A stretch of 64,000 nt of DNA, taken from Variovorax sp. S12S4. Lineage in GTDB: Bacteria > Pseudomonadota > Gammaproteobacteria > Burkholderiales > Burkholderiaceae_C. The translations under genes and the position numbers were made by a program. Position 1 is the first letter of the stretch, and each line of letters starts with the position of its first letter. Where the stretch lies: positions 5,681,001 through 5,745,000 of the forward strand of contig NZ_JALPKR020000002.1 of NCBI RefSeq assembly GCF_023195515.1. The letters run 5' to 3'. This document shows, piece after piece, positions 15,843 to 58,129 of the stretch. The notes beneath the pieces are model-generated. The model did not search any database. It was not told the DNA's origin and saw only the letters and a list, made by a program, of their open reading frames with translations.

Positions 15843-16346
15843 TCAGGCCGGCACCAGCCGCCACCATTCGGAGCGCGGCCTTTCGCTGTTGCGCTCTTCT
15901 TCCACGATGCCGACCAGCAAGCCGGCACTTCCAGCGCCTGCTCGCGAAAGCCGCAGCAGCTTCTCCGGATCGCGGCACAGTGCAAAGCTCGCGTCGCCTT
16001 GCCATTCAAGGCAACGGCCGACCTCCGCCAGCATCAGCGCGGGCTGGCTCTGCATGAAGGTGAACGGCATCAGCATGCCCGCATCGAGCTGGGCCAGCGC
16101 CGCATGCGTCGCTCCCCAGGCACCGCGCATGCTCGACACCCGCAGCCGCGCACCGGTGGGCAGGGCCGCCTCGCCCGCCTCGTCGAGGCAGCGGCGTGCA
16201 CCGTACATTGCAAGCTCGGTCCACAACCCGACGCGCCGCGGCCGGCGGCCGAGCCGGTGCGCCAGCTGGTCACGCCAATCCGCCGGCAGCGGATCGGCGG
16301 TGAAGTGCGCGGCGATGCGCCATGCCTGTTCGAGATGGGTGCTCAT
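15843..16346 (-). CDS. Ketosynthase-like protein (Ketoacyl-synt_2 / chain-length-factor type)
   Basis: This 167-residue protein starts MSTHLEQAWRIAAHFTADPL. The middle part (VSSMRGAWGATHAALAQLDA, then MPFTFMQSQPALMLAEVGRC) resembles the short N-terminal ketosynthase domain family found beside ketosynthases in aryl-polyene and related lipid clusters. There is no nucleophile cysteine in the expected place; MQSQPA reads like the Gln-substituted elbow of chain-length factors. It is the last gene of the cluster, with its start overlapping the ketosynthase stop by 4 bp, and is probably a non-catalytic partner of that enzyme. Confidence 0.65.
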   Translation of the reverse strand: MSTHLEQAWRIAAHFTADPLPADWRDQLAHRLGRRPRRVGLWTELAMYGARRCLDEAGEAALPTGARLRVSSMRGAWGATHAALAQLDAGMLMPFTFMQSQPALMLAEVGRCLEWQGDASFALCRDPEKLLRLSRAGAGSAGLLVGIVEEERNSERPRSEWWRLVPA

Positions 16347-17428
16347 GCCGCGCAGTCCTGCAGCACCAGCGACGTATGCCCGCCGCCGAATCCCACCACG
16401 TTGAGCAGCAAGTTGCGCAGTCTGGCCGGAGCCTGCGTGCTCAATGCAATGCCGAGTTCGCCGTCGATGGCATATCCGACAGCAGGCCAGGCGCCGGCTT
16501 CGATGCAGCCAACCAGCAAGGCGAGTTCGGCCGCGCCCGAGGCGCCCAGCGTGTGCCCGATCAGCGACTTGAGCGACACCAGCGGCGGCAGCGCGTCGAA
16601 GACCTGCTTCAGCGCCTCGGCCTCGATCGCGTCGTTGACCGGGCTTCCCGCAGCCTGCACTTTTATCAAATCGATCTCATGCACTCCGAGGCCGCTGCGC
16701 GCCAATGCTTCATGGCACATGGCGATCACCGCGCTGGCTTCGGTGCCCGACGGATTGCGTCCGTCGACCACGTTGGAACCCCCCGCAATCCGCCAGCGCC
16801 CAGGGCGCGAGCTAAGGCGCAGCGCGGCCACCGCCTCACCGAGCACCAGCCCGTTGCGCTCGGCACCGAAAGGCTGCGCCCTATCGGGTGAGAGCAGTTG
16901 CATCGCGCCGAAGCCAGCCACGGTGAAGCGGTTGCCAAGCTCGGCGCCGATCACCAGTGCCTCTTCGGCTTCGCCGCTTCGAATCAGATCGCAGCCTGCG
17001 AGCACGGCATTGATCGCGGAGGTGCAAGCTGTCGAGATGGTGAACACCGGCCCCTGCCAATCGAGCGCACCGGCCACGAGCCCGGCAAAGTCCTGGAGAT
17101 CGCCGCCCAGGCGCAGGTCTTGCACCTCGTGCTCCATGAGGCCGATGTCCAGGGATGACGATGCAACCAAGAGCGGACATGAACGCCCTGCTCCCTCGTC
17201 CACTTGCGCCGCCTGCGCCGCCACGCTTCGCACGATGCGCTGCAGCCGCTCGATCCAGCTGCCATCCTGCGGCGGCAGCGTGTAGACGGGCCACTGCACG
17301 CTTTCCAAGACCGCCACCATCGTGGGCGGCACGCCCCCGCGCGCAACTGCGGCCACGGAGGACGAGAGATCGCTGCCGAGCGCGCAGGCCAAGCCCATGC
17401 CGGCGAGATACACGCTCTCGGCGGTCAT
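16343..17428 (-). CDS. Beta-ketoacyl-ACP synthase I/II-like, altered active site
   Basis: This 361-residue thiolase-fold enzyme keeps the nucleophile elbow ISTACTSAINAV (Cys135) and the Lys287/His292 element SLKSLIGHTLGASGAAEL. The first catalytic histidine motif (normally xxHGTxTPxND) reads KVQAAGSPVND, putting Gln258 where histidine is expected. The length is about 50 residues short of FabF. Either it decarboxylates poorly and serves as a transferase or loading ketosynthase, or its mechanism differs. It lies behind the ACP gene, 138 bp apart, with a repeat element between. Confidence 0.85.
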   Translation of the reverse strand: MTAESVYLAGMGLACALGSDLSSSVAAVARGGVPPTMVAVLESVQWPVYTLPPQDGSWIERLQRIVRSVAAQAAQVDEGAGRSCPLLVASSSLDIGLMEHEVQDLRLGGDLQDFAGLVAGALDWQGPVFTISTACTSAINAVLAGCDLIRSGEAEEALVIGAELGNRFTVAGFGAMQLLSPDRAQPFGAERNGLVLGEAVAALRLSSRPGRWRIAGGSNVVDGRNPSGTEASAVIAMCHEALARSGLGVHEIDLIKVQAAGSPVNDAIEAEALKQVFDALPPLVSLKSLIGHTLGASGAAELALLVGCIEAGAWPAVGYAIDGELGIALSTQAPARLRNLLLNVVGFGGGHTSLVLQDCAA

Positions 17429-17460
17429 CAGACAGCCTTCGTGCTCCGCACTGCGGCGCG

Positions 17461-17493
17461 AGCTTGCTTGGGGCGGCCCGGCGCGGCGCTCAT
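17461..17493. repeat. Copy 1 of a 33-bp direct repeat in the ACP-ketosynthase gap
   Basis: The 33-bp unit beginning AGCTTGCTTGGGGCGGCCC recurs 77 bp further on with two mismatches. Between the copies lies a short palindrome CCCGCCAAGCGGG (17521-17533). Both copies end in GCTCAT. On the minus strand the copy reads into a possible 21-codon ORF (MSAAPGRPKQARAAVRSTKAV) ending exactly at the ketosynthase start (TGATG). I regard the structure as an intergenic repeat rather than a gene. Confidence 0.7.
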
Positions 17494-17537
17494 AGGTGCA
17501 CCCTTGGCGCTGCGCGCCTTCCCGCCAAGCGGGAGCC

Positions 17538-17570
17538 AGCTTGCTTGGGGCGGCCCTGCGCAGCGCTCAT
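17538..17570. repeat. Copy 2 of the 33-bp direct repeat, covering the ACP stop codon
   Basis: This is the second copy of the unit (AGCTTGCTTGGGGCGGCCC, then TGCGCAGCGCTCAT). The ACP stop codon lies inside it, so the duplicated segment includes the end of the ACP gene. Confidence 0.7.
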
Positions 17571-17842
17571 CCCTTGCCCGCTTGCACCAGGTGGCTCGCC
17601 AGGTGTGCAATGGAAGTGAGCGCGCGGCGCGTTTCCTTGCTGTCGGGCATGCGCACGCCGAAGCGCTGCTGGATCGTCATCGACACCTGCAGCGCGTCGA
17701 GCGAGTCGAGGTCGAGCCGGGCTTCGGGGCCGAACAGCGGCTCGTCGTCGCCAAGGCCGCCCGGAGGCGCCTCTTTTTCAACGGCCTCGAGCACCATGGT
17801 CTTCAGGCTGGCAATGAATTCGGCGGAAACGGAATCGGTCAC
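17567..17842 (-). CDS. Acyl carrier protein
   Basis: This 91-residue acidic protein has the 4'-phosphopantetheine attachment site LDLDSLDALQ, Ser47. The helix-2 stretch that follows (VSMTIQQRFGVRMPDSKE) is typical of ACPs in secondary lipid pathways. It is dedicated to the cluster rather than the primary fatty-acid ACP, since it sits between the ABC exporter and the ketosynthase genes, with its ATG overlapping the permease stop (ATGA). It would carry the growing or loaded acyl chain for the ketosynthases and the BtrH-like transferase. Confidence 0.9.
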   Translation of the reverse strand: MTDSVSAEFIASLKTMVLEAVEKEAPPGGLGDDEPLFGPEARLDLDSLDALQVSMTIQQRFGVRMPDSKETRRALTSIAHLASHLVQAGKG

Positions 17843-18996
17843 GATGCGGGCCTGCGAAACAAGAAGACGGCAAGCAAGAACATGGCGGCCGCAAACAGCA
17901 CGAGCCGGCCGACCTGCGGCAGGGTGTCGGCCACGCCGCCGCCGCGCAACAGCACGGTAAGCAGCGCCTCCAGCCCCCAGTTCATCGGGGAAATTTCAAC
18001 CAGCCGCTGCATGAAGCCGGGCATGACGAACTTCGGCACCATGATGCCGCCGGCCGCCGCCATCAGCACGTTGACCATCGGCCCGATGGTCGCGGCCTGC
18101 GCATGGCTGCGCACGGCGCAGGCCAGCGCGAGCGACAGGCTCACCGCGGCCAGGCTCACGGCCGCGAGCGCAACCACCAGGGCGCCCCAATCGATACCGG
18201 CAAGCGAAAGCGCATCGCCGCCGATCAAGGGCATCAGCCAGATGCCGGCAGCGAGCATCAACACGGCCTGCAGCGCGTTCACACCAAGATAAGGCAAGGC
18301 TTTGGACATCAGCAGCATGAAGCGCGACACACCCAGGCTGCGCAGCCGGCCCAGCGCGCCCGAACTGCGCTCCTGCACGAACAGGCTGGAGAGCGACGCC
18401 ACCACGAAGAACATGCCGAACACCAGCCATGCCGGCACGTTCTGCTGCACCGATGTGGGCCGCGGCCCGGCGGTGGAATAGCGCTCGGCATTCACCAGCG
18501 CCTGGATCGAGGCGCCCGGCGGCGGACCCGAGGTGCCCGGCACTGCAAGCGCCAACCGAGCCTTCAGTTCGCCGGACGCGCCGACGAGTTCGGCGCGCAA
18601 GGCATTGAACAGGTTGGCGTCGATGCCCGGCTCGGTCAGCAAACGGACGTGCGCCTTGGTCGAGAGCGCGGCCGATTCGAGCTCCGCCGAAAGGCCCGGC
18701 TCCAGCACGATGACGTACTTGAGCGCGCCGCTGCGCAATCGCGCCTCCCAATCGGCACCGAGCGCCTGCGGCGCACCGTGGCTGCGCTGCCATATCTGCT
18801 GCAGCCATTGCGCCGGCGTTTCGGTGTCGCGCATGTCCACGGCGTAGCTGAGCTCGGCCAGAGGCGGGCGGTAGATGTCCTTGAGCGTGAGCGACATCAG
18901 CACGATGAAGACCATCGGCATCAGAAACAGCGCGGCCAGCCCGTGCATGTCGCGCACGAGTGCCAGCAGTTCCTTCTTGATGAGCGCGAGGAGCAT
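17839..18996 (-). CDS. ABC-2 type transporter permease
   Basis: This 385-residue protein starts MLLALIKKELLALVRDMHGL, followed by the first transmembrane helix, a large extracytoplasmic domain (about 45-220) and five C-terminal helices, the layout of YhiH/YbhR-type ABC-2 exporters. The longer open frame upstream only shadows the ATPase gene. It pairs with the ATPase gene 7 bp upstream and probably exports the product of the lipid cluster or a precursor. Confidence 0.9.
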   Translation of the reverse strand: MLLALIKKELLALVRDMHGLAALFLMPMVFIVLMSLTLKDIYRPPLAELSYAVDMRDTETPAQWLQQIWQRSHGAPQALGADWEARLRSGALKYVIVLEPGLSAELESAALSTKAHVRLLTEPGIDANLFNALRAELVGASGELKARLALAVPGTSGPPPGASIQALVNAERYSTAGPRPTSVQQNVPAWLVFGMFFVVASLSSLFVQERSSGALGRLRSLGVSRFMLLMSKALPYLGVNALQAVLMLAAGIWLMPLIGGDALSLAGIDWGALVVALAAVSLAAVSLSLALACAVRSHAQAATIGPMVNVLMAAAGGIMVPKFVMPGFMQRLVEISPMNWGLEALLTVLLRGGGVADTLPQVGRLVLFAAAMFLLAVFLFRRPAS

Positions 18997-19003
18997 GGTG
19001 TGT

Positions 19004-19912
19004 TCAGTCGCGCAAGGAACGGTGGGTGAGCGCCATGAAGAGCTGCTCCAGGTCGTGGCGGCCGAATTCCGCGTGGCGCACTTCGATGCCTTCGGTCTCG
19101 AGCGTCGCCAGCACCGGACCGGGCCCGGTGCCTTCGTGCAGGTGCACACGCCAATGCACGCCCCCAGGCTCCACCGTTCCAAAGCGCGAGAGCATGGCTT
19201 CGTCGAGCCCGTCGGCCGCGAGCGTCAGAAGCATTGCGCTCTTCGACAGCAGCTCTTCGAGCGAGCCTTCGCGCAGCACTCGGCCATGGTCAAGAATGGC
19301 AACCCGGTCGGCGATGGCCTCGATCTCTTCCATGTAGTGCGAGGCATAGATCACTGCGGCGCCCTGCTGCGCCAGGCTCTTGATGGCATCGAGAATGAAA
19401 GCGCGCGATTGCGGATCGACGCCAACCGTAGGCTCGTCAAACAGCATCAGCTCGGGCTCGGGCAACAGTGCAATCGCGAGGTTCAATCGGCGTTTCAGGC
19501 CACCCGAGAGCCGCTCGGCCCGCGCACCCGCAAACTGCTCAAGCTGCGAAAAGCGCGTGCAGGCTTCGATGCGCGCCTTCTTGTGCGCGCCGGAAAGTCC
19601 GCCGGCAGCCGCAAAGCATGCGAGGTTTTCGGCCACCGTGAGCATGGGGTAGAAGGCCTGGTCCTGCGGGGCGACGGCGATGCGGGTTGGCGTCTTTGCC
19701 CTGACCTGTTGAAGCGGCTGGCCGTCGATGTGGATTTCGCCCGACTGCACTGCCAGCGCACCCGACAAGTGCGAGATCAACGTGGTCTTGCCTGCGCCGT
19801 TGGGGCCGAGCAAGCCCATGACCGACCCCCTGGGAACTGCAAGCGAGACCTCGGCCAACGCGGGTGCGTTTGCATGCGGATAGCGGTAGCTGAGGTTCTT
19901 CAGTTCGAGCAT
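19004..19912 (-). CDS. ABC transporter ATP-binding protein
   Basis: This 302-residue protein has Walker A GLLGPNGAGKTTLISHLSGA, signature RLSGGLKRRLNLAIAL, Walker B LMLFDEPTVGVDPQSR and H-loop VIYASHYMEE. This is the CcmA/NatA-type single ATPase used with ABC-2 permeases. It is followed closely by the permease gene. Upstream of its ATG lies a 351-bp stretch with palindromic repeat copy A, separating it from the BtrH-like gene on the same strand. Confidence 0.93.
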   Translation of the reverse strand: MLELKNLSYRYPHANAPALAEVSLAVPRGSVMGLLGPNGAGKTTLISHLSGALAVQSGEIHIDGQPLQQVRAKTPTRIAVAPQDQAFYPMLTVAENLACFAAAGGLSGAHKKARIEACTRFSQLEQFAGARAERLSGGLKRRLNLAIALLPEPELMLFDEPTVGVDPQSRAFILDAIKSLAQQGAAVIYASHYMEEIEAIADRVAILDHGRVLREGSLEELLSKSAMLLTLAADGLDEAMLSRFGTVEPGGVHWRVHLHEGTGPGPVLATLETEGIEVRHAEFGRHDLEQLFMALTHRSLRD

Positions 19913-19956
19913 ATGGTTGTTGCTCGTTGGGTGCGCTGTTGTTGGGGGTGCTGCTG

Positions 19957-20215
19957 ATCCAGGGCTTGTGCAAAGGCCACCGGGTACTCCCCTCCGCGAA
20001 TGTCCTCCGGGCTTCGCCCTCCTCCTTTATTTCGCTGCGTGGAGCACCCGATGCCCTGTGCACTTGGGCACGCCCGTGGTGCAACGCTGATCAACGACTG
20101 CTCTGCCCAACGCACCCGCTGGCGGGGTGCCTTGCGCAGCGAAATAAAGGAGGAGGCCGCAGGCCGGGGGACATTCGCGGAGAAAGGTACCCCGTCGGCG
20201 GGTGCGCGCCCTGAA
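19957..20215 (-). repeat. Palindromic MITE-like repeat, copy A
   Basis: This is about 259 bp, reverse-complementary to copies at 32622 and 57874. Nested inverted arms are visible: terminal GTTCAGGGCG against GCCCTGGATC (approximate), inner TCCGCGAATGTCC against GGACATTCGCGGA, and TCCTCCTTTATTTCGCTGCG against its exact complement at about 20133-20154. It fills most of the 351-bp gap (19913-20263), which holds no convincing gene. Short ORFs crossing it translate similarly in all copies because the DNA is conserved, not because they look like proteins. Confidence 0.9.
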
Positions 20216-20263
20216 CGCCCCAGATCAAACTCAACACGGCAAGCAGAAAGCCAGTGCGTCATC

Positions 20264-21244
20264 TCAAGCAACAGCAGTCTTCAAATCTCGAAAGAAGGCC
20301 TCTTCCTGCTGCGCCTGCTCCCGCAGCTTGCCAGCCAGCGCGGCAGGATCGACCGGCTCGCGCCCCTTCACCATGCGCGCCGCCTTGAGTGCGAAAGCGC
20401 GCCAGCCGTCGCCGATGGCGATAAGCCGTTCAGACATCTGTTGCAGCTGCGGTTTGTCGAGCAGTAGCGCCGCCTCCTGCAAAAAGCCGGCATAGATGAA
20501 GCGGAAGCCCGCCCCGCCAGTGCCGATTTCTTCCTGCATGCGCACCACATGGCCGATGAAGTCGACGCTGCGCGAATCGGCCGGGGAAAGCTTCTGCATG
20601 CGGTTGGCCAGCGTGCGCATGCCGCGTACGCCGACGATGGGAATCGGCGCGAGCATGTTGCGGACGGTCTTGCGGATGGCCCTTGTCACCGATGCCGCAT
20701 CGACCGTCTTGCGCTCGATGGCTTGGGGGTAGTACATGAGGCCCTTGGGCGCGAGCACGCCCTTGGCGAAGCGCGCGCGCGAAAGGTCGGCGCTGGCGCA
20801 ACGTACCGGCTCTTCGAACACCGGGTCGCTGATCAGGTAGTCGTCGCCTTCCTTGCCGTACACCAGCAGGTTGTGCGCGTTGAAGTGAAAGCGCATGTTG
20901 GGCGGAAAGTACGGCAGCCAGTAGACCGAGGTCTGCAAGCCCACGAGCTGCCCGTCGGCCAGGAGTGCGTCCAGGCGCTGTGCGCCGGCTTCCGGGCTGC
21001 GAAAGGTCTCGAAGCGAAAGCGTGCGGCCATCGGCGCCAGCAAGCCCTTGATGATGGCCTTGGGCGGCATGCGGTACGAGATGAGCGGCAAGCCCGACAG
21101 CTTGATGAACGGCAGGTAGGCGAACGACAAGGCCGACGAAAGGCCGAGGGCCATGCTCTCGGTCATCGGCACGCCGTGGTGGCGCATCAGGTTCGAGATG
21201 ACGCCGCTTTCGCAGTGTGCCGCTTGCTGGTGTTCGAATTTCAC
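20264..21244 (-). CDS. BtrH N-terminal domain protein, putative ACP-dependent acyltransferase
   Basis: This 326-residue protein starts at GTG 21244 (MKFEHQQAAHCESGVISNLM), overlapping the stop of the upstream gene as GTGA. The N-terminal cysteine-containing stretch AAHCESGVISNLMRHHG and the later FHFNAHNLLVYGKEGDDYLISDPVF fit the BtrH_N family of papain-like acyltransferases. The family name comes from butirosin BtrH, which moves an acyl group from an ACP to an aminoglycoside. Here a transfer from the cluster ACP to an unknown acceptor is a reasonable inference. Confidence 0.8.
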   Translation of the reverse strand: MKFEHQQAAHCESGVISNLMRHHGVPMTESMALGLSSALSFAYLPFIKLSGLPLISYRMPPKAIIKGLLAPMAARFRFETFRSPEAGAQRLDALLADGQLVGLQTSVYWLPYFPPNMRFHFNAHNLLVYGKEGDDYLISDPVFEEPVRCASADLSRARFAKGVLAPKGLMYYPQAIERKTVDAASVTRAIRKTVRNMLAPIPIVGVRGMRTLANRMQKLSPADSRSVDFIGHVVRMQEEIGTGGAGFRFIYAGFLQEAALLLDKPQLQQMSERLIAIGDGWRAFALKAARMVKGREPVDPAALAGKLREQAQQEEAFFRDLKTAVA

Positions 21245-21636
21245 GGCAGGCCTTGCAAGGTGGAAACGGGCAGGCCCAGCGCTTCGGAGTAACGCGCCAG
21301 GTGCTTTGCCGGGAGCGCCGCGAAATGCTTGGGCTTCAGGTGGCGCCGCACGCGCCATTGCCAGAAGCCGCTGGTCTGCGAGAGCAGTGCCACGTCCATG
21401 CGGCGCTCGTACATCCAGTATTCGAGCGGCGACGCGAGCCCCTGGGCCACGCGCTCCTTTGCGACCTGCGCCTGCTCGACGAGCACGTCGACCGCGTGGC
21501 TGGTGACGATTTCTTCCGCCTCCCAGCCGCGTGAGCGCGTGGTGACGACGCGGCCCTGCGCATCGCGCGCGTACATGAGCTTGGCGTGGCCATCCAACGT
21601 GGCATTGCCTTCTTGCGGAACGGCGTCGAGGTCCAT
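21241..21636 (-). CDS. Conserved-looking 131-residue protein of the lipid cluster
   Basis: The protein starts MDLDAVPQEGNATLDGHAKL. I do not recognise the family. It has no signal peptide or membrane segment. The centre (SHAVDVLVEQAQVAKERVAQ) looks helical, and the C-terminal part is rich in Arg/Trp/His (FWQWRVRRHLKPKHF). It starts 2 bp after darB and its stop overlaps the BtrH-like start, so it is firmly inside the operon and likely made at similar level. Function unknown. Confidence 0.7.
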   Translation of the reverse strand: MDLDAVPQEGNATLDGHAKLMYARDAQGRVVTTRSRGWEAEEIVTSHAVDVLVEQAQVAKERVAQGLASPLEYWMYERRMDVALLSQTSGFWQWRVRRHLKPKHFAALPAKHLARYSEALGLPVSTLQGLP

Positions 21637-21638
21637 GG

Positions 21639-22775
21639 CTAGATGGCTTCCAGGTAGATGAAACCGCTGGAGAAGCGGCCGCTTTCGGGCACGAACATCA
21701 GCAGCTTGTGGCCGGGCTTGATGCGGCCCGAACGGAACAGCTCGTCGAGCATGATGTAGGGCGATGCCGAGCCGGTGTTGCCCTTGGTCGCGAGATTGCT
21801 GAACCAGCGCTCGCGCGGAATGGCAAAACCCATGGCCTCCAGGCACTGGCTCACAGGCTCGATGAAGTAGCCGGACGAGAGATGCGGCAGGAACCAGTCG
21901 ACATCTGAAGCCTTCAGGCCGCGCTTCTCGATGATGGCCGCCAGCGGCTCGCCCAGCGTGGCACGAACGATGTTCTCGTTGAGCAGGCGCACGTCCTGCT
22001 TCACGGCAAAGGTCGACTCGCGCTGCCAGTCTTCGGGCGCGGTGCGCGCCCATCCCTCCAGGCCGCCTTCGGTGTTCTTGTCGGCGCCTGCATACATGCA
22101 CACCGGCAGTTCGTGCGCGGCGGAAGACAGGTCGATCCACTCCACGCGCAGCGACAGCGGGCCGCGCGGCTCGCGCTCGAGCAGCACGGCGCCGGCACCG
22201 TCGGAGAGCATCCAGCGCAGAAAGTCTTTTTCGAAAGCGATTTCGGGCCGCTCCTCGAGCGCCTGCAGCTTGTGCTCCAGCTCGGCTTCGAAGCGGGAGC
22301 CGCGCATCACGGCCGAGGCGAGTTCGGACCCCGTGGCCACCGCACGCCGCGCATCGCCCGAGCGCACAGAGAGCCATGCGTGCTTGAGCGCCGTGGTGCC
22401 CGCCAGGCAGATGCCCGCGCAGGCCACCACTTCGAGCCGTGGCCAGCCAAGCTCGCCATGCACCATGACCGCGTGGTTGGGCATCAACTGGTCGGGAAGC
22501 GAAGTGCCGGTCACCAGGCAATCGACCGGACCGATGTCATCGCCCAGCGCCCGGATGGCCGAGGCAGTGAGCTGCGCGTTGCTCATGGCGAGTTGGCCGG
22601 TGGCCCGGTCGATGGCGTAGTGGCGCGACTGGATGCCGTTGCTGCGAAGAATCAGCCGCCGCGCGCGCGAAGCCTTGCCGCCGACGCGACCGAGAACGTC
22701 TTCGATGTCTTCATTGCTGACCGGGGAAAAGGGCAGAAACGCGGCAGTGCGGGTCAGGAAGACATCAGTCGTCAT
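21639..22775 (-). CDS. darB: Beta-ketoacyl-ACP synthase III, DarB-like
   Basis: This 378-residue KAS III has a complete Cys-His-Asn triad: VVACAGICLAG (Cys119), DWFLPHLSSGYF (His298) and ATKGNTGSAS (Asn333). The extended insertions around SRFEAELEHKLQALEERPEI and the DarA-like neighbour point to the DarB group, which condenses two acyl-derived units to a cyclohexanedione or dialkylresorcinol ring in Pseudomonas and Photorhabdus. Its start lies within the last codons of darA (11-bp overlap). The symbol rests on family and context. Confidence 0.85.
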   Translation of the reverse strand: MTTDVFLTRTAAFLPFSPVSNEDIEDVLGRVGGKASRARRLILRSNGIQSRHYAIDRATGQLAMSNAQLTASAIRALGDDIGPVDCLVTGTSLPDQLMPNHAVMVHGELGWPRLEVVACAGICLAGTTALKHAWLSVRSGDARRAVATGSELASAVMRGSRFEAELEHKLQALEERPEIAFEKDFLRWMLSDGAGAVLLEREPRGPLSLRVEWIDLSSAAHELPVCMYAGADKNTEGGLEGWARTAPEDWQRESTFAVKQDVRLLNENIVRATLGEPLAAIIEKRGLKASDVDWFLPHLSSGYFIEPVSQCLEAMGFAIPRERWFSNLATKGNTGSASPYIMLDELFRSGRIKPGHKLLMFVPESGRFSSGFIYLEAI

Positions 22776-23745
22776 AGAGGGGGGAACGGTCCGTGGCCGA
22801 GCCCGACGGGCGCTCGAAATGAGCCGTCATTTTAGTCAGCCACCCCTTGAACAACGGCCGCAGCAGCGCCTGGAGTGTCAAGCTCACAGGCACGACCGTG
22901 ACAATGAGCACGAGGAGGAAGACCACGTAGAGCAGCAGCAGGGGCTTGCGCTGCCACGCGCCCGGCCGCCCCGCCGCCATGATCAACTTGCCCCAGAGAA
23001 AAAAGCTGCGGGTGCCGGCTTTTTCGCTGATCAGGAGCTTTGCGTTGGCTTGAACGGCCCCCAGGCCGGAGAGCAACGGCTGCGATCCGCGTTCGAGGTC
23101 AGCGTGCAGCGCCTCGCGCAGCGCGCGGCCAAAACGGCCGGCGCCGCGGATCTGCCCTTCGCTGAGACCCGCATCGGGCATGCCCCAGAAGCCGCGCTTG
23201 CGGCCCCAGATCAGCCAGGCCGGCGTGGTGAAGAAGGTGGCCAGCGTCGGCCCGGGGTCGGTCAGCACCACGTTGTCGATCAGGCGCGCACCCACGGCAT
23301 CGAGCAGGCCCTTTAGCTTTTCGTGGGCCAGCAGCCACATGTTGCGGCAGGCGATGACCGTGACGACGGGCTTGCCCCTCAGCAGATGGCTCGCCAGCGG
23401 ATGCTTCAGGAAGGCGACGATCGGCTGCGACGGCGCCAGGAACCAGACCTGGTACGGCAGGATGACCAGGTCGAAGTGCTCGTCGCCCGTGAGCGAGAGC
23501 GGCGCCAGCTGCGGCGGCTTCATGTGCGCCGACTCGGGAAAGGCATCGAAGAAGGTCAGGAACGGCCAGGGAAACGGGAAATCCGCCTGCGGACGCAGCG
23601 TTTCGACGTGCACGGAGATTCCCGGGTCGGCCTTGAGCGGCGCAACGATCTGCTCGGCGACGCTGCCAAGCTGGCCGGTCTGCGAGTAGTGGATCACCAG
23701 AACACGTTTGAGGCGCTCGGCGGGGCTGGGAATGCTTGAGGTCAC
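22765..23745 (-). CDS. darA: DarA-like protein (flavodoxin fold, dialkylresorcinol ring-forming partner)
   Basis: This 326-residue protein starts at GTG 23745 (MTSSIPSPAERLKRVLVIHY). SQTGQLGSVAEQIVAPLKAD is a flavodoxin-type phosphate-binding loop, with later strands DLVILPYQVWFLAPSQPIVA and GKPVVTVIACRNMW. A hydrophobic anchor lies near residues 275-305. Proteins of this type are annotated as dialkylresorcinol condensing enzyme DarA and act with DarB, probably in aromatisation. It is the first gene of the minus-strand cluster; about 155 bp upstream separate it from glpV, with the glp terminator in between. Confidence 0.8.
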   Translation of the reverse strand: MTSSIPSPAERLKRVLVIHYSQTGQLGSVAEQIVAPLKADPGISVHVETLRPQADFPFPWPFLTFFDAFPESAHMKPPQLAPLSLTGDEHFDLVILPYQVWFLAPSQPIVAFLKHPLASHLLRGKPVVTVIACRNMWLLAHEKLKGLLDAVGARLIDNVVLTDPGPTLATFFTTPAWLIWGRKRGFWGMPDAGLSEGQIRGAGRFGRALREALHADLERGSQPLLSGLGAVQANAKLLISEKAGTRSFFLWGKLIMAAGRPGAWQRKPLLLLYVVFLLVLIVTVVPVSLTLQALLRPLFKGWLTKMTAHFERPSGSATDRSPLYDD

Positions 23746-23841
23746 TTGCTGGGGCGAAACGAGGGCCGTCGAATGTAAGCCAACCGTACGCCTGGCGCAT
23801 CTGCCATTGGTCATGCCGTCGCGCCGATCCCACGAATGGAC

Positions 23842-23881
23842 GAAAAAAAGCCGCGCCTTTTGGGGCGCGGCTCTCGAGAGG
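23842..23881 (-). terminator. Intrinsic terminator of the glp transport operon
   Basis: A 9-bp stem AGCCGCGCC / GGCGCGGCT with a short loop is followed on the minus strand by seven T (A-tract at 23843-23849). It lies about 20 bp after the glpV stop and separates the glycerol operon from the dar cluster. Confidence 0.88.
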
Positions 23882-23902
23882 GCTAGAGAGAACGCTGAAG
23901 GG

Positions 23903-25723
<1,821 letters not shown>

Positions 25724-25815
25724 GGTTTATCTCCTCGTTCCTTCGCTTCCCCGTGTGCGGCTGATTTCACCTCGGCCCCGGGGAAGCACCGGGCCGAATT
25801 GCCGGAGTACGCGAG

Positions 25816-26124
25816 CTAGCCCTTGCGCATGATCAGCGCGAGCACCAGCATCGAAAACACAAAGCCGATCCAGATCGACGGCTCGGCCTGCAGCGTCATT
25901 GCGGACTTGGCCCATTCCGCAAGGCCGATGTAGATCAGGTTGATATAGGCCGCCGAGAGCAAGCCGATGAACAGCCGGTCGCCGCGCGTGGTTTCGATCG
26001 GCAGCCAGCCGCGCCGCAGCGTGGTGGGCGACTTGATCTCCCACACCGTCATGCCGACCAGCATGAGCGCGATGCAGACGAAGAACACGGCCACCGGAGT
26101 GGTCCAGGACATCCAGGCAAACAT
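25816..26124 (-). CDS. glpU: GlpU-like small membrane protein (DUF2160)
   Basis: This 102-residue protein has three hydrophobic segments (VAVFFVCIALMLVGMTVWEI, then GLLSAAYINLIYIGLAEW, then IWIGFVFSMLVLALIM) and the short loop ETTRGDRLF. It occupies exactly the slot between the second permease and the binding protein where glpU (DUF2160) occurs in glycerol ABC operons. It starts 1 bp after glpQ. The role is unknown, possibly an accessory transporter subunit. Confidence 0.85.
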   Translation of the reverse strand: MFAWMSWTTPVAVFFVCIALMLVGMTVWEIKSPTTLRRGWLPIETTRGDRLFIGLLSAAYINLIYIGLAEWAKSAMTLQAEPSIWIGFVFSMLVLALIMRKG

Positions 26125-26125
26125 T

Positions 26126-26934
26126 TCAGACTCTCCCCATCGCGAAACCCTTGGCGATGTAGTGCCGCACGAACCAGATCACGATGGCACCCGGCACGAT
26201 AGTGAGCACGCCGGCGGCCGCAAGCGTAGCCCAGTCCATGCCCGATGCGCTCACCGTGCGCGTCATGGTCGCGACGATCGGCTTGGCGTTGACGCTGGTG
26301 AGCGTGCGCGCCAGCAGCAGCTCGACCCAGCTGAACATGAAGCAGAAGAACGCCGCCACGCCCACGCCGGCCTTGATCAGCGGCAGGAAGATCCGGATGA
26401 AGAACTTCGGAAAGCTGTAGCCGTCGATGTAGGCGGTTTCATCGATCTCGCGCGGAATGCCGCTCATGAAGCCTTCGAGAATCCACACGGCCAGCGGCAC
26501 GTTGAACAGCAAGTGAGCGAGCGCCACGCCCAGGTGCGTGTCCATCAGGCCCACGGTGCTGTACAGCTGGAAGAACGGCAGCAAAAACACCGCGGGCGGC
26601 GTCATGCGGTTGGTCAAGAGCCAGAAGAAAACGTGCTTGTCGCCCAGGAACGAATAACGCGAGAACGCATAGGCCGCCGGCAGCGCCACGGTCAGCGAAA
26701 TGACCGTGTTAATGCCCACGTAGATCAGGCTGTTGATGTAGCCCGAGTACCACGAAGCGTCGGTGAAGATGCGTGTGTAGTTGGCCCAGGTGAACTGCTG
26801 CGGAAAGAACGAGAAGCTCGAAAGGATTTCGCCGTTCGTCTTGAAGCTCATGTTGACCATCCAGTAGATGGGCAACAGCGCAAAAAGAATATAGAGCAGC
26901 AAGAAGATGCTGCGCTTGCGGAATCTGCGCTCGT

Positions 26935-26938
<4 letters not shown>
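26126..26938 (-). CDS. glpQ: Glycerol ABC transporter permease
   Basis: This 270-residue MalG-type permease has six predicted helices and the EAA loop GIPREIDETAYIDGYSFPKF, which contacts the ATPases. Its start overlaps the glpP stop by 4 bp. It forms the inner-membrane channel with GlpP. The name follows the glpSTPQUV order and should not be confused with the periplasmic phosphodiesterase also called GlpQ in enterobacteria. Confidence 0.9.
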
Positions 26939-27825
<887 letters not shown>

Positions 27826-28613
27826 GGGGCTTCCATCTTCTGTACGGGGTTGGCGCGGCCTTGTTGCGATGCGTTCTTCATGCAACCAGCTCCTCGTCGC
27901 GGTAATAGCAGGTGTGGGTGTCCAGCACGCGCAGCCACACGGTCTCGCCTACGGCGGGCAGCGGCGCATCGGCATGCAGGCGGGCCTTGAGCGCGGTGCC
28001 GCCGGCGTCGGCGCTCAGCATGGCATGAGTGCCCACGTCCTGCACCTGCGTGACGGTGGCGGGCACGGCGCCCTGCCCGCGCGCTTCGACCACCCGCAGG
28101 TATTCGGGCCGGATGCCCAGCTTGATCGAGCCTTCGGGCAGTTGGCGCGTCGGCACGAGCGGCGTGCCTGCCACTTCGAGCGCGCCGTTCGTGTTTTTTG
28201 CCGCCAGGAAATTCATGCCGGGCGAGCCGATGAAGTGGCCGACGAAGGTGTGGGCCGGCCGCTCGAACAGCGCCTCGGCGCTGCCCACCTGCACGGCCTT
28301 GCCGCGCGTCATGACCACGACCTCTTCGGCAAAGGTAAGCGCCTCGACCTGGTCGTGCGTCACGTAGATCAGCGTGAGCTTGAGCTCGCGGTGAATCTGC
28401 TTGAGCTTGCGGCGCAGCTGCCACTTCAGGTGCGGGTCGATCACCGTGAGCGGCTCGTCGAACAGCACGGCCGACACGTCGCTGCGCACCAGCCCGCGGC
28501 CGAGCGAAATCTTCTGCTTGGCGTCGGCCGCGAGCCCCGCCGCACGCTGGTTGAGCTGGCCGCTCATGTCGAGCATTTCGGCGATCTCGCCCACGCGCTT
28601 CTTGATCTGGTCT

Positions 28614-30022
<1,409 letters not shown>

Positions 30023-30023
<1 letters not shown>

Positions 30024-31696
30024 CAGCGCTCCCGATTGATCGTGTTGCTGTTGTTCTTTGCATGCGCCTGCAGCCAGGCGGCCACCTGCGCGCGTTCTTC
30101 GGCCGTGTAGCGCAGGCCGAGCTTCGACCGGCGCCAGAGCACGTCGTCCGCGCTCATGGCCCATTCGCTCTCCTGCAGAAACCGCAGTTCGCGCTCATGA
30201 AGCCCCGGCGCCACGGCGTCCCCCATGTCGGCCATGGACTGCGCATCGCCAAGCAGCTCGGCCACGCGCGCACCATAGGCGCGTGCGAGGCGCCGCGCAA
30301 GCCTGGCGTCGAGCCACGGGTAGCGGGCCTGCACTGCGGCCACGAAGCGTTCGAAGTCGTCGTCGGGCCGCTTCGGCGCGCCGATCCATCCGGAAAGATC
30401 GCCGCCCGCAAGAAAGGCGCCGTCGGTCCAGGCCGGGCGTTGCGTGTTCGGCTGGCCGAGCATCTTGCCGACCTCGTCGGCCGCGTCTTCGGCCAGCTTG
30501 CGAAAGGTGGTGATCTTGCCGCCCCACACCGACAGCAGCGGCGCCGCGGTGGTGTTGGACTCGAGCATGTAGTCGCGCGTCACGGCCGAGGGGTCACCCG
30601 AGGCGTCGTCCAGCAGCGGACGCACTCCCGAGTAGGTCCAGACCACGTCGGCCGGCACGATCGGCTTTTCGAAATAGCGGCTGGCCTGGGTGCAGAGATA
30701 GGAGATTTCTTCGTCGGCAATGCGCGCCGGGCCGGGATCGTCGGCGTTCAGTTCGATGTCGGTGGTGCCGATCAGCGTGAACTCGTCCTGGTACGGAATC
30801 GCGAAGATGATGCGCTTGTCGGGGTTCTGGAAGATGTAGGCATGGTCGTGCTCGAAGAGGCGCCGCACCACGATGTGGCTGCCCTTGACCAGCCGCAGGT
30901 GCCGGGTGGCCAGCGCCTCGCCCTTGGCCGATTGCGCCACGCCACGCAGAAACGATTCCGCCCACGGCCCCGCCGCATTGACCACGGCACGGGCGCGCAC
31001 CACGCGAATGCCGCCGTCCGCGGCCTCGAGCGTGGCCGTCCAGCCTTCTGCGTCGCGCTGCGCATGAACGCAGCGAGTGCGCGTGAGCACCTCGGCACCG
31101 CGCGCCCGGGCGTCCACGGCATTGAGCACCACCAGCCGCGCGTCGTCGACCCAGCCGTCTGAATAGACGAAGCCGCGCTTGAACTGCGGCTTGAGCGGCG
31201 CGCCGGCCGCATGGCTGCGCAGGTCGATGCTGCGCGAGCCCGGCAGCACTTCGCGCTTGGCGAGGTGGTCGTACATGAAAAGGCCGATGCGGATCATCCA
31301 GCCCGGCCGCATCGATGGGTCATGCGGCATGACGAAGCGAAGCGGCCACATGATGTGCGGCGCGCTCTTGAGCAGCACTTCGCGCTCCTGCAGTGCCTTG
31401 CGCACGAGCGAGAACTCGTAATACTCCAGGTAGCGCAGCCCGCCGTGAATGAGTTTGGTCGATGAGGAAGACGTGTGCGAGGCGAGATCGTCCTTTTCGC
31501 ACAGCACCACGCGCCAGCCCCGGCCCGCCAGGTCGCGCGCAATGCCGCACCCGTTGATGCCGCCGCCGACGATCAGCACATCGCAATCGGTTGCCGGCAG
31601 AGGCGAATTGGAGGAGAAATCGCTCACAGAAGATGGGCCCGTTGGTTCGTGACTTAGATCACTGAAGGGCGCCATTGTATTTTCGCGTCTTTTCAT
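30023..31696 (-). CDS. glpD: Aerobic glycerol-3-phosphate dehydrogenase
   Basis: This 557-residue protein starts MKRRENTMAPFSDLS behind AAGGAATCCAA. The FAD dinucleotide-binding fold is CDVLIVGGGINGCGIARDLA, followed by the family signature STKLIHGGLRYLEYYEFSLV; later elements are IGTTDIELNADDPGPARIAD and VWGGKITTFRKLAEDAADEV. It oxidises glycerol-3-phosphate to dihydroxyacetone phosphate at the membrane, passing electrons to quinone. It heads the minus-strand glp operon and faces the divergent glpR gene across 121 bp. Confidence 0.96.
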
Positions 31697-31817
31697 TTGG
31701 ATTCCTTTTGACGCGATTTTCCTCCGAGTTTTCCCTTAGTACGGTTCGTTTTCTTTCGTTTTAAAGTGGCGCGGCCTGTACTCTCCAGAGAGTCTTCCCG
31801 TTCTCCACGACGCTTTT
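31697..31817. promoter_or_regulatory. Divergent glpD / glpR control region with candidate GlpR sites
   Basis: This 121-bp, locally T-rich gap separates glpD from glpR. At 31744-31761 it holds TTCGTTTTCTTTCGTTTT, two copies of TTCGTTTT spaced 10 bp start to start, hence on the same DNA face. DeoR-type glycerol repressors often bind repeated TTCG-containing half-sites, so this is the best operator candidate. The assignment as a GlpR site is inference. Confidence 0.55.
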
Positions 31818-32585
31818 GTGAATTCCAATCCGCGCCAGATCAACCTTCTCGATACCGTGCGCACGCGCGGCTCCGTCACCGTGGAACAGCTGGCCGAGAT
31901 GCTCGGCGTCACGCTGCAAACGGTGCGGCGCGACGTGCAGCGGCTGGCCGACGAAGGCCTGCTCACGCGTTTTCATGGCGGCGTGCGGGTGCCGAGTTCC
32001 ACCACCGAGAACATCGGCTACCAGCAGCGCGAAACACTGCATGCCGAAGGCAAGGCGCGCATTGCGCGACGCGTTGCCGAGCTGGTGCCCAACGACTGTT
32101 CGCTGATCCTCAACATCGGCACCACCACCGAAGCCATTGCCAAGGCCCTGCTGCGGCACACGGGCCTGCGCGTGATCACCAACAACCTGAACGTGGCGAC
32201 CATATTGAGCGGCAATACGTCGTGCGAGGTGATCGTCGCCGGCGGTTCGGTACGGCCGCGCGACCGCGCCATCGTTGGCGAGGCCACCATCGATTTCATC
32301 CGCCAGTTCAAGGTCGACATCGCGCTGATCGGGGTGTCGAGCATCGAGGCCGACGGTTCACTGCGCGACTTCGACTTGCGTGAAGTGAAGGTGGCGCAAA
32401 CCATCATCGCGCAAGCTCGCGAGGTGTGGCTGGCGGCCGACGCGAGCAAGTTCAACCGGCCGGCGATGATCCAGCTGGGCACGCTCTCGCAGATCGACCG
32501 CCTGTTTACCGACGCGGAGCCGCCGCCGCCTTTTGCCGACTTGCTGCATGCGGCGCAAGTGCGGCTTGAGATTGCGCGCGATTGA
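31818..32585 (+). CDS. glpR: DeoR-family regulator of glycerol genes
   Basis: This 255-residue protein starts at GTG (MNSNPRQINLLDTVRTRGSV). The N-terminal HTH is VTVEQLAEMLGVTLQTVRRD followed by QRLADEGLLTRFHGG, the DeoR signature. The C-terminal sugar-phosphate sensor domain shows LILNIGTTTEAIAKALL and VIVAGGSVRPRDRAIVGEAT. It is expected to repress the glp genes until glycerol-3-phosphate is present. It is divergent from glpD and upstream of glpK, with repeat copy B between. Confidence 0.92.
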   Translation: MNSNPRQINLLDTVRTRGSVTVEQLAEMLGVTLQTVRRDVQRLADEGLLTRFHGGVRVPSSTTENIGYQQRETLHAEGKARIARRVAELVPNDCSLILNIGTTTEAIAKALLRHTGLRVITNNLNVATILSGNTSCEVIVAGGSVRPRDRAIVGEATIDFIRQFKVDIALIGVSSIEADGSLRDFDLREVKVAQTIIAQAREVWLAADASKFNRPAMIQLGTLSQIDRLFTDAEPPPPFADLLHAAQVRLEIARD

Positions 32586-32621
32586 AGATGGGGCTGATTT
32601 CTGTTCGCTCTGCCGAGGGGA

Positions 32622-32893
32622 GTTCAGGGCGCGCACCCGCCGACGGGGTACCTTTCTCCGCGAATGTCCCCCGGCCTGCGGGCTTCCGCACCTCCTCCTT
32701 TGTTTCGCTGCGCAAGGCACCCCGCCAGCGGGTGCGTTGGGCAGAGCAGTCGTTGATCAGCGTTGCACCACGAGCGTGCCCAGGTGCACAGGGCATCGGG
32801 TGCTCCACGCAGCGAAATAAAGGAGGAGGGGCGCAGCCCCGGGGACATTCGCGGAGGGGGAGTACCCGGTGGCCTGTGCACACGCCCTGGAAC
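32622..32893 (+). repeat. Palindromic MITE-like repeat, copy B
   Basis: This is about 272 bp in the 384-bp gap between glpR and glpK. The left end is GTTCAGGGCGCGCACC and the right end is GCACACGCCCTGGAAC, an imperfect terminal inverted repeat. Inner pairs are TCCGCGAATGTCCCCCGG with CCGGGGACATTCGCGGA, and TCCTCCTTTGTTTCGCTGCG with CGCAGCGAAATAAAGGAGGA (one mismatch). A central segment of about 95 bp is shared with the other copies. Apart from the glpK ribosome-binding site (AAGGAA, 32953-32958) nothing else is recognisable in the gap. Confidence 0.92.
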
Positions 32894-32969
32894 AACGGCG
32901 CGAAAACGACAGCGCCAAGAACACAAGTCGCATGACCAGCATGACCAGACTCCAAGGAACACCCAAGCC

Positions 32970-34463
32970 ATGACCTACCTCCTAGCACTAGACCAGGGCA
33001 CTTCGAGCTCCCGCAGCATCGTGTTCGACCGCGAAGGCCACATCGTCGCCATCGCCCAGAAGGAGCTCACGCAGATCTATCCGCAGCCCGGCTGGGTAGA
33101 ACACGACCCGATGGAAATCTGGCACAGCCAGTTGGCCACCGCGCGCGAAGTGCTGGTCAAGGCCAAGCTCCAGCCTTCTGACATTCATGCGATCGGCATT
33201 ACCAACCAGCGCGAAACTACCGTGCTGTGGAACCGCAAGACCGGCCAGCCCGTGCACCACGCCATCGTGTGGCAAGACCGGCGCGCCGAACCGCTGTGCG
33301 CCAAGCTGCGCGAAGACGGCATGACCGGCACCATTCAGGAAAAAACCGGGCTGGTCATTGATGCGTATTTTTCGGGCACCAAGCTGCGCTGGCTGCTCGA
33401 CAACGTACCCGGCGCACGCGCCCAGGCCGAGCGCGGCGATCTTGCCTTCGGCACCGTCGACAGCTGGCTCATGTGGCAGCTTACCGGCGGCAAGGTGCAC
33501 GTCACCGATGTGAGCAATGCCTCGCGCACCATGCTCTTCAACGTGCACAGCAACGAATGGGATGCCGACCTCCTCAAGGCGCTCGACATTCCCGCCGCGC
33601 TCATGCCCAAGGTGCAACCGTCGAGCTCCCACTTTGCAGACACCGACGAGGCACTGCTCGGCCGCGCGCTGCCCATCGGCGGCGTGGCCGGCGACCAGCA
33701 AAGCGCCCTCTTCGGCCAAGCGTGCTTCGCAGCCGGCATGGCCAAGAACACCTACGGCACCGGCTGCTTCCTGCTCATGCACACGGGCGCGGCATTCCAG
33801 CCCTCGCACAACGGCCTGCTCGTCACCAGTGCCGCGCAGACCGACGCCACGCCGCAGTACGCCATGGAAGGCAGCGTCTTCGTCGGCGGCGCCGTGGTGC
33901 AGTGGCTGCGCGACGGCCTCAAGGCCATCAAGGGCAGCGCCGAAGTGCAGTCGCTTGCCGAAAGCGTGCCCGACGCGGGCGGCGTGATGATGGTGCCGGC
34001 CTTCACCGGCCTGGGCGCGCCCTACTGGAACGCCGATGCGCGCGGCACCATCACCGGCCTGACGCGCGGAACCACGGTGGCGCACATCGCGCGCGCCGCG
34101 CTCGAAAGCATCGCCTACCAGAGCGCCGCACTGCTGCAAGCCATGAGCCGCGATGCGGTCGCCGCCGGCGGCACGCCCGTGGCCGAGCTGCGCGTCGACG
34201 GCGGCGCCAGCGTGAACGACCTGCTGATGCAGTTCCAAGCCGACCTGCTGGGTATTCCCGTGGTACGGCCCGAAGTGATCGAGACCACGGCACTGGGCGC
34301 CGCCTACCTCGCGGGCCTGTCGACCGGGGTCTACAGCGACGCACGCCAGTTGTCGAAACTGTGGAAAGTGGAACGCCGCTTCATGCCGACCATGGGCCGG
34401 GCGCAGGCCGAGGAATCGATGGCGCGCTGGGAGCGCGCAGTGCGGCAGGCGACGGCGAGTTGA
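32970..34463 (+). CDS. glpK: Glycerol kinase
   Basis: The 497 residues (E. coli GlpK has 502) start [20 protein letters not shown]. The FGGY-kinase landmarks are the phosphate-1 loop at the N-terminus, [40 protein letters not shown], the adenosine motif [20 protein letters not shown] and the C-terminal [12 protein letters not shown]. It phosphorylates glycerol to glycerol-3-phosphate, feeding GlpD. An open frame extends upstream into repeat copy B, but the AAGGAA at 32953-32958 and family alignment fix the start here. Confidence 0.97.
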
Positions 34464-57873: not shown

Positions 57874-58129
57874 GTTCAGGGCGGCGCCCCCGCCGACGGG
57901 GTACCTTACTCCGCGAATGTCCCCGGCCTGCGGCCTCCTCCTTTATTTCGCTGCGCAAGGCACCCCGCCAGCGGGCGCGTGATCCAGAGCAGTCGTTGAT
58001 CGGCGGAACACCAGCAGCGTGCCCCGGTGCACAGGGCATCGGGTGCTCCACGCAGCGAAATAAAGGAGGAGGCGAAGCCGGGGGACATTCGCGGAGGGGA
58101 GTACCCGGTGGCCTTTGCACACGCCCAGA
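57874..58129 (+). repeat. Palindromic MITE-like repeat, copy C
   Basis: This is about 256 bp in the 332-bp gap 57858-58189, same orientation as copy B. The left end is GTTCAGGGCGGCG and the right end GCACACGCCCAGAA. The inner arms TCCGCGAATGTCCCCGG and CCGGGGGACATTCGCGGA, and TCCTCCTTTATTTCGCTGCG and its exact complement (about 58052-58072), are intact. Its central part has more changes than those of copies A and B. Apart from the repeat the gap shows only A-rich sequence ahead of the phosphoesterase start. Confidence 0.9.

Follow-up and report, generated by a model that had tools for sequence, protein, structure and literature searches.

A nine-gene dialkylresorcinol cluster of Variovorax sp. 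S12S4 as a probable module of an arcuflavin-type aryl-polyene pigment pathway

We analyzed a 64,000-nucleotide stretch of Variovorax sp. S12S4 (hereafter the window; G000:C2:5681001-5745000, part of a 5.97-Mb Variovorax-type genome), which carries a run of nine open genes of dialkylresorcinol (DAR) type on the minus strand, from position 23745 down to 15843, in the order darA-B-D-E-F-I-C-J-K (Table 1). The gene letters are the Azoarcus names. NCBIfam calls darD "DarG" (DarG_fam) and darE "DarH"; the genes named darG and darH in Azoarcus are different ones (prevent-host-death and PilT, respectively). Consecutive ends of darA, darB, darD and darE overlap or almost touch, gaps of 351 and 138 bases separate darE from darF and darC from darJ, and a scan of 23700-24000 detected no promoter or terminator.

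Table 1. Genes and features of the dar run and of the polyene loci elsewhere in the genome (window positions, unless contig C2 is given)
Feature	Position	Strand	Description
darA	22765..23745	-	326 aa, GTG start; aromatase role from Azoarcus name
darB	21639..22775	-	StlD/DarB ketosynthase, 378 aa; NCBIfam NF005293
darD (NCBIfam DarG_fam)	21241..21636	-	131 aa; predicted Xre/Cro-like helix-turn-helix, residues ~62-131
darE (NCBIfam DarH)	20264..21244	-	BtrH-type acyltransferase, 326 aa, GTG start; invariant C11, H124, D140
Imperfect palindromic interspersed repeat	19979..20195	.	between darE and darF; outside pathway
darF	19004..19912	-	ABC transporter ATPase, 302 aa; Pfam ABC_tran
darI	17839..18996	-	ABC-2 permease, 385 aa; Pfam ABC2_membrane_3
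darC	17567..17842	-	acyl carrier protein, 91 aa; Pfam PP-binding
darJ	16343..17428	-	ketosynthase, 361 aa, C135-Q258-H292, K287; Pfam ketoacyl-synt
darK	15843..16346	-	167 aa; no Pfam, NCBIfam or PDB match; 90 relatives
arc locus	~C2:5075674-5088548		polyene module, unlinked to dar run
third locus	C2:2001468-2005222		ketosynthase, chain-length factor, halogenase-like flavoprotein

An initial annotation, made from the window sequence, had already outlined this run, and comparison with 55 related loci (L-numbers; protein homologue counts are on 52 rows) upholds it as a unit. All nine genes stand in the same order on one strand in 34 of the 55 (darK of L010 being truncated by a contig end), and nine further loci have the first eight genes in order with darK unmatched. 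Six loci (L007, L016, L026, L033, L034 and L051) are cut by short contigs or contig ends. Five others (L040, L048, L050, L053 and L054) show darF-I-C-J inverted relative to darA-B-D-E, again with darK unmatched (darA of L048 lies outside the sequence examined), and this inversion suggests that the cluster behaves as two sub-blocks. At L055 the genes are spread out and darA is unmatched. No internal stop was present in the DarA, DarB, DarC, DarD, DarE, DarJ and DarK rows compared.

The initial annotation placed a DarA-like and a DarB-like gene at the head of the run. The DarB part stands: the protein reaches 591 bits against NCBIfam NF005293 (StlD/DarB; cut-off 450), and its best PDB relative, and nearest solved sequence relative, is StlD (5gk0; 418 bits over nearly the full length). 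StlD is an enzyme of the isopropylstilbene pathway, unlike DarB here. DarA is a putative assignment resting on position, synteny and a resemblance judged by eye, its N-terminal S-Q-x-G-Q-L appearing flavodoxin-like. DarA also has a C-terminal hydrophobic segment (residues 269-287), and a strongly hydrophobic stretch of 19 residues recurs in 52 of 52 homologues, near the C terminus in the seven inspected; this conserved stretch would serve as a membrane anchor and suggests that DarA is membrane-attached.

The 131-residue product of darD had been called an orphan, a status we reject because it matches NCBIfam DarG_fam (NF053536) at 165 bits (cut-off 70) and has 1449 relatives. It lies below the cut-off of the flexirubin_DarG model NF053545 (121.5 vs 170 bits), its profile found nothing below E 0.13 among PDB sequences, and Foldseek gave no match at E <= 0.001. 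Judging by its predicted structure, DarD probably acts as a regulator or adaptor of the small helix-turn-helix kind. The next protein, DarE, is confirmed as a BtrH-type acyltransferase by Pfam BtrH_N and DUF4872 and by NCBIfam DarH (NF053550; 488.6 bits, cut-off 300). Its closest named relatives are from Variovorax, with 97% identity to the protein of Variovorax sp. DXTD-1. Searching PDB sequences with the DarE profile returned only designed coiled coils and one dehydrogenase, at E 0.014 and worse; its structural model has a two-domain CtaG/AziU3/CcbD-like acyltransferase fold with a Cys-His-Asp triad, placed by position and spacing. AziU3 and CcbD form amide bonds. CtaG, too, is described in the literature as an amide bond former, whereas DarE is expected to form an ester. 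On the strength of this model, DarE is probably the enzyme that joins a polyene to the resorcinol. The ABC-2 exporter (DarF and DarI) and the dedicated acyl carrier protein (ACP) DarC are borne out by their Pfam matches, and the D46-S47-L48 motif of DarC is kept in at least 97% of 52 homologues. The description as a DAR-type cluster that includes an exporter and an acyl-transfer protein of BtrH type is therefore retained.

As first noted, no ketoreductase, dehydratase or ligase lies inside the cluster. The accompanying claim that acyl chains must come from primary metabolism is rejected for the product as a whole, since a polyene module is encoded at two other loci. The arc locus opens with genes for a UbiE-type methyltransferase and a chorismatase of XanB2 type (PF21168, 138.8 bits), followed by an acyltransferase, a glycosyltransferase and a short-chain reductase. 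Next come a second methyltransferase and a polysaccharide deacetylase, then a protein of 798 aa that occupies the position of the arc exporter and lacks a Pfam match, and a LolA-like protein. The locus closes with a 332-aa protein at the arcR position (likewise without a Pfam match), an AMP-ligase carrying a FabA-like domain, a protein of 214 aa and the polyene ACP (125.8 bits, cut-off 70). Between the second methyltransferase and the ACP the genes follow the arcM-arcV order of Azoarcus, and neither arcO nor arcS is present as a separate gene. At the third locus, the ketosynthase scores over the PRK09185 cut-off (507 vs 407) and the chain-length factor matches PF13723; the best PDB relatives of the two include chains A and B of 6qsp, which we take to be the aryl-polyene ApeO/ApeC pair. 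The genome thus holds the XanB2-type chorismatase, polyene ACP, ketosynthase/chain-length factor pair and reductase of an arcuflavin-type pathway, and with these genes at two other loci the product need not be undescribed. Beside the pair lies a halogenase-like flavoprotein (Pfam Trp_halogenase; L063 11469-13139), and Azoarcus arcA is a halogenase (PMC3949708).

The two modules also occur together across the class. In a class sample of 274 genomes, our own included, DarH scored over its cut-off in 13 and the polyene ACP in 66, and all 13 DarH genomes had both (Fisher 3.5e-9); with our own genome excluded, the figures are 12 of 12 and 1.4e-8. Two sub-cut-off DarH matches without polyene ACP (G263 and G138) are excluded from the 13, which span 12 families by automatic labels, and in five of the 13 DarH and the polyene ACP lie on one contig within ~20 kb. 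A second sample comprised 25 dar-bearing genomes drawn from the 55 loci, five of them titled Variovorax and 20 not, and the polyene ACP was over cut-off in 24. Among 101 genomes of the genus, DarH is found in 57, the polyene ACP in 100 and XanB2 in all 101; XanB2 was accordingly dropped as an uninformative marker of the polyene module and the polyene ACP used in its place. The 44 genus genomes that lack DarH all carry the polyene ACP, so that, with the ACP as its marker, the polyene module is independent of DAR. From the class and genus counts, the relation runs one way: dar implies arc, and arc does not imply dar.

These same counts bear on who makes the ester. Two genes of the arc locus are candidates, one matching Pfam Acyltransferase (L071 9525-10328) and one (L071 16918-17916) assigned to the arcR place by order alone and without a Pfam match. 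Either could join the hybrid while DarE, rather than forming the ester, loads or unloads DarC; the CtaG fold has been proposed to act from carrier to carrier, which would suit a DarC loader. We consider this unlikely, in that the polyene ACP, as marker of its module, is present in every DarH-less genus genome, and outside the genus DarH was always accompanied by that ACP.

The closest described system is that of Azoarcus sp. BH72 (PMC3949708). Its dar cluster (azo0293-azo0283; Table 1 of that paper) lists darA as a DAR-aromatase, darB, a hypothetical darD, a BtrH-like darE, darF as an ABC ATPase, darG (prevent-host-death), darH (PilT), the permease darI, the ACP darC, the ketosynthase darJ and a hypothetical darK. 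The gene order is that of the window (darA and darK being matched by position only), except that in Azoarcus darF and darI are separated by two additional genes (prevent-host-death and PilT-domain). In both genomes the polyene genes are unlinked to dar and lie at two other loci, although the split over the two loci differs. The pigment made by Azoarcus, arcuflavin, has the proposed structure of DAR 7 linked through a predicted ester bond to a xanthomonadin-like aryl heptaene; the product is demonstrated there, whereas the Variovorax system is known here from its genes. The same paper describes combined DAR and xanthomonadin-like clusters in three V. paradoxus strains, including S110, which by its text shares both genus and gene combination with our strain (Fig. 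2D, Table S2), and leaves hybrid production undecided. Flexirubin clusters of Bacteroidota likewise share DarG-family and DarB-family proteins, and in flexirubins a DAR is esterified to an aryl polyene; the flexirubin-specific DarG model is the one that the window DarD falls short of. The "unusual composition" and "undescribed product" of the initial annotation do not survive this comparison. A match to a characterized pathway, the finding it had named as telling against it, is largely what we see, with the product shown in Azoarcus and not in Variovorax. By its genes, we take the cluster to be of a known pathway type, ordinary for the genus, with a predicted Variovorax product.

We consider it highly probable that these nine genes form the dialkylresorcinol part of a pathway to an aryl-polyene pigment of arcuflavin type (flexirubin-like), on the basis of gene content, gene order, family membership, the polyene module at two loci and class-wide co-occurrence. 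In the proposed pathway, DarB would condense two fatty-acid-derived chains, with DarC as the dedicated carrier, and DarA would aromatise the ring to a 2,5-dialkylresorcinol. The unlinked arc loci would assemble an aryl polyene from a 3-hydroxybenzoate starter, using an ACP of their own. DarE, as a papain-like Cys-His-Asp acyltransferase, would then transfer the polyenoyl chain from its carrier to an ester on a resorcinol hydroxyl, and the DarF/DarI ABC-2 transporter would export the lipid in the direction of the outer membrane, perhaps aided by the arc exporter and the LolA-like protein.

Several observations weigh against this assignment. DarB lies below the cut-off of the narrower resorcinol_DarB model NF053539, an exception model (465 vs 550 bits), and DarA has no Pfam, NCBIfam or PDB sequence match (best PDB hit at E 0.21 or worse). 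The likeness of DarE to CtaG/AziU3/CcbD is at the level of the fold (10-18% identity), and it may act on an acceptor other than DAR. Nearly every genome of the genus has the polyene ACP, so that co-occurrence within the genus says little, and the sole genus genome without it, G099 (an 89% complete assembly), is DarH-positive. In the sample of 25, the dar-bearing genome of L048 (G116, 2.3 Mb) has only a 43-bit polyene ACP match, under the cut-off. We recognised no separate dehydratase gene in the arc locus, and a limited search of open-licence papers on arcuflavin, aryl polyenes and dialkylresorcinols found no product from Variovorax. Finally, this assembly lacks an intact AMP-ligase: the gene at the arcT place is split over two frames, an N-terminal 98 aa and a remaining 460 aa including the FabA-like domain, with the break at ~L072 2297-2330, outside the window. 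In all 12 loci compared from other dar-bearing genomes, the two pieces share a single frame. The ligase may be broken, or the split may be a sequence or assembly error. Azoarcus arcK and arcT insertion mutants are colourless and arcT is essential for the pigment (PMC3949708), so that, barring such an error, this strain may be a polyene non-producer.

A split ligase would also suit a cluster that makes a free, exported dialkylresorcinol as a signal or antioxidant, with DarE adding an ordinary fatty or other small acid in place of a polyene. DARs are called bacterial signals in PMC9430724, which cites Brameyer et al., and Azoarcus DAR proteins yielded DAR when expressed in Escherichia coli (PMC3949708). 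Searches of our genome with ketosynthase, ACP and XanB2 matched only darJ and darC in the window, so that no such polyene genes lie beside the cluster. We nevertheless judge a free DAR to be decidedly improbable, both from the polyene ACP accompanying DarH in 13 of 13 genomes and from Azoarcus, where the hybrid was detected and free DAR was not (PMC3949708).

The changed active site of DarJ, noticed in the initial annotation, is confirmed: Q258 stands where FabF-type enzymes have His, so that the Cys-His-His set of a ketosynthase, with both catalytic histidines, lacks the first of them. DarJ has 6qsp_A as its best PDB match. Among the 52 homologues, Gln occupies this place in 44, all have both Cys135 and His292, and at least 97% retain the GFGG loop. 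With its first His replaced by Gln, DarJ is probably not an ordinary decarboxylating ketosynthase. Loss of the first histidine of a ketosynthase reportedly spares transacylation but not decarboxylation, and our literature search found no paper on an H298Q mutant. We tentatively suggest, with more doubt than confidence, that DarE is an ester-forming, carrier-dependent acyltransferase of CtaG/CcbD type, the hitherto unassigned enzyme linking aryl polyenes to dialkylresorcinols, and that DarJ is a non-decarboxylating transacylase (Cys-Gln-His) feeding DarC, DarB or DarE; a limited search of open-licence papers found no report of either activity.

The label of darK as a short ketosynthase-like protein is unproven, since DarK matches nothing in Pfam, NCBIfam or the PDB (its profile found nothing in the PDB up to E 1) and gave no significant profile match to the chain-length factor of the genome (ArcJ), with no PF13723 match and hhalign probabilities of 0.4% and 0.1% from shallow profiles. 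Together, darK and darJ have the lowest coding scores per residue among the nine genes, by a codon table trained partly on the same genes. These scores, the Gln in most DarJ homologues and the arcT gene in two frames could be read as a cluster in decay, in which darJ and darK are remnants and the changed active site is a loss of function. We hold this to be very unlikely indeed, as it sits poorly with the conserved cysteine, second histidine and GFGG loop of DarJ, with the lack of internal stops and with the nine-gene order shared by 34 loci.

The window has some further features. The repeat between darE and darF consists of two arms ~115 bases apart, forming an imperfect palindrome, and two further copies (32693-32827 and 57936-58070) bring the window to three. 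Exact matches to a repeat arm number 110 genome-wide (54 forward, 56 reverse), compared with 0 for a reversed-pattern control. The repeat is present between darE and darF in 11 of 47 loci (gaps of 313-365), and the darE-darF gap is under 100 bases in 35 of the 36 others. The darC-darJ gap has a 39-base direct repeat, 90% identical, at 17455-17493 and 17532-17570. Upstream of darA (23903-34463), the genes look, on inspection by eye, like an ABC uptake operon for glycerol or sugar together with a GlpD-like dehydrogenase, a regulator of DeoR type and a glycerol kinase.

The analysis thus removes a supposed new lipid family and ties the cluster to a published pigment type. It also yields a testable prediction, that the ester-forming step in flexirubins, arcuflavins and the Variovorax system may be assigned to DarE (NCBIfam DarH), and it offers in DarJ a natural case for ketosynthase function without the first catalytic histidine. 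It is the enzymology of DarE and DarJ that deserves specialist attention.

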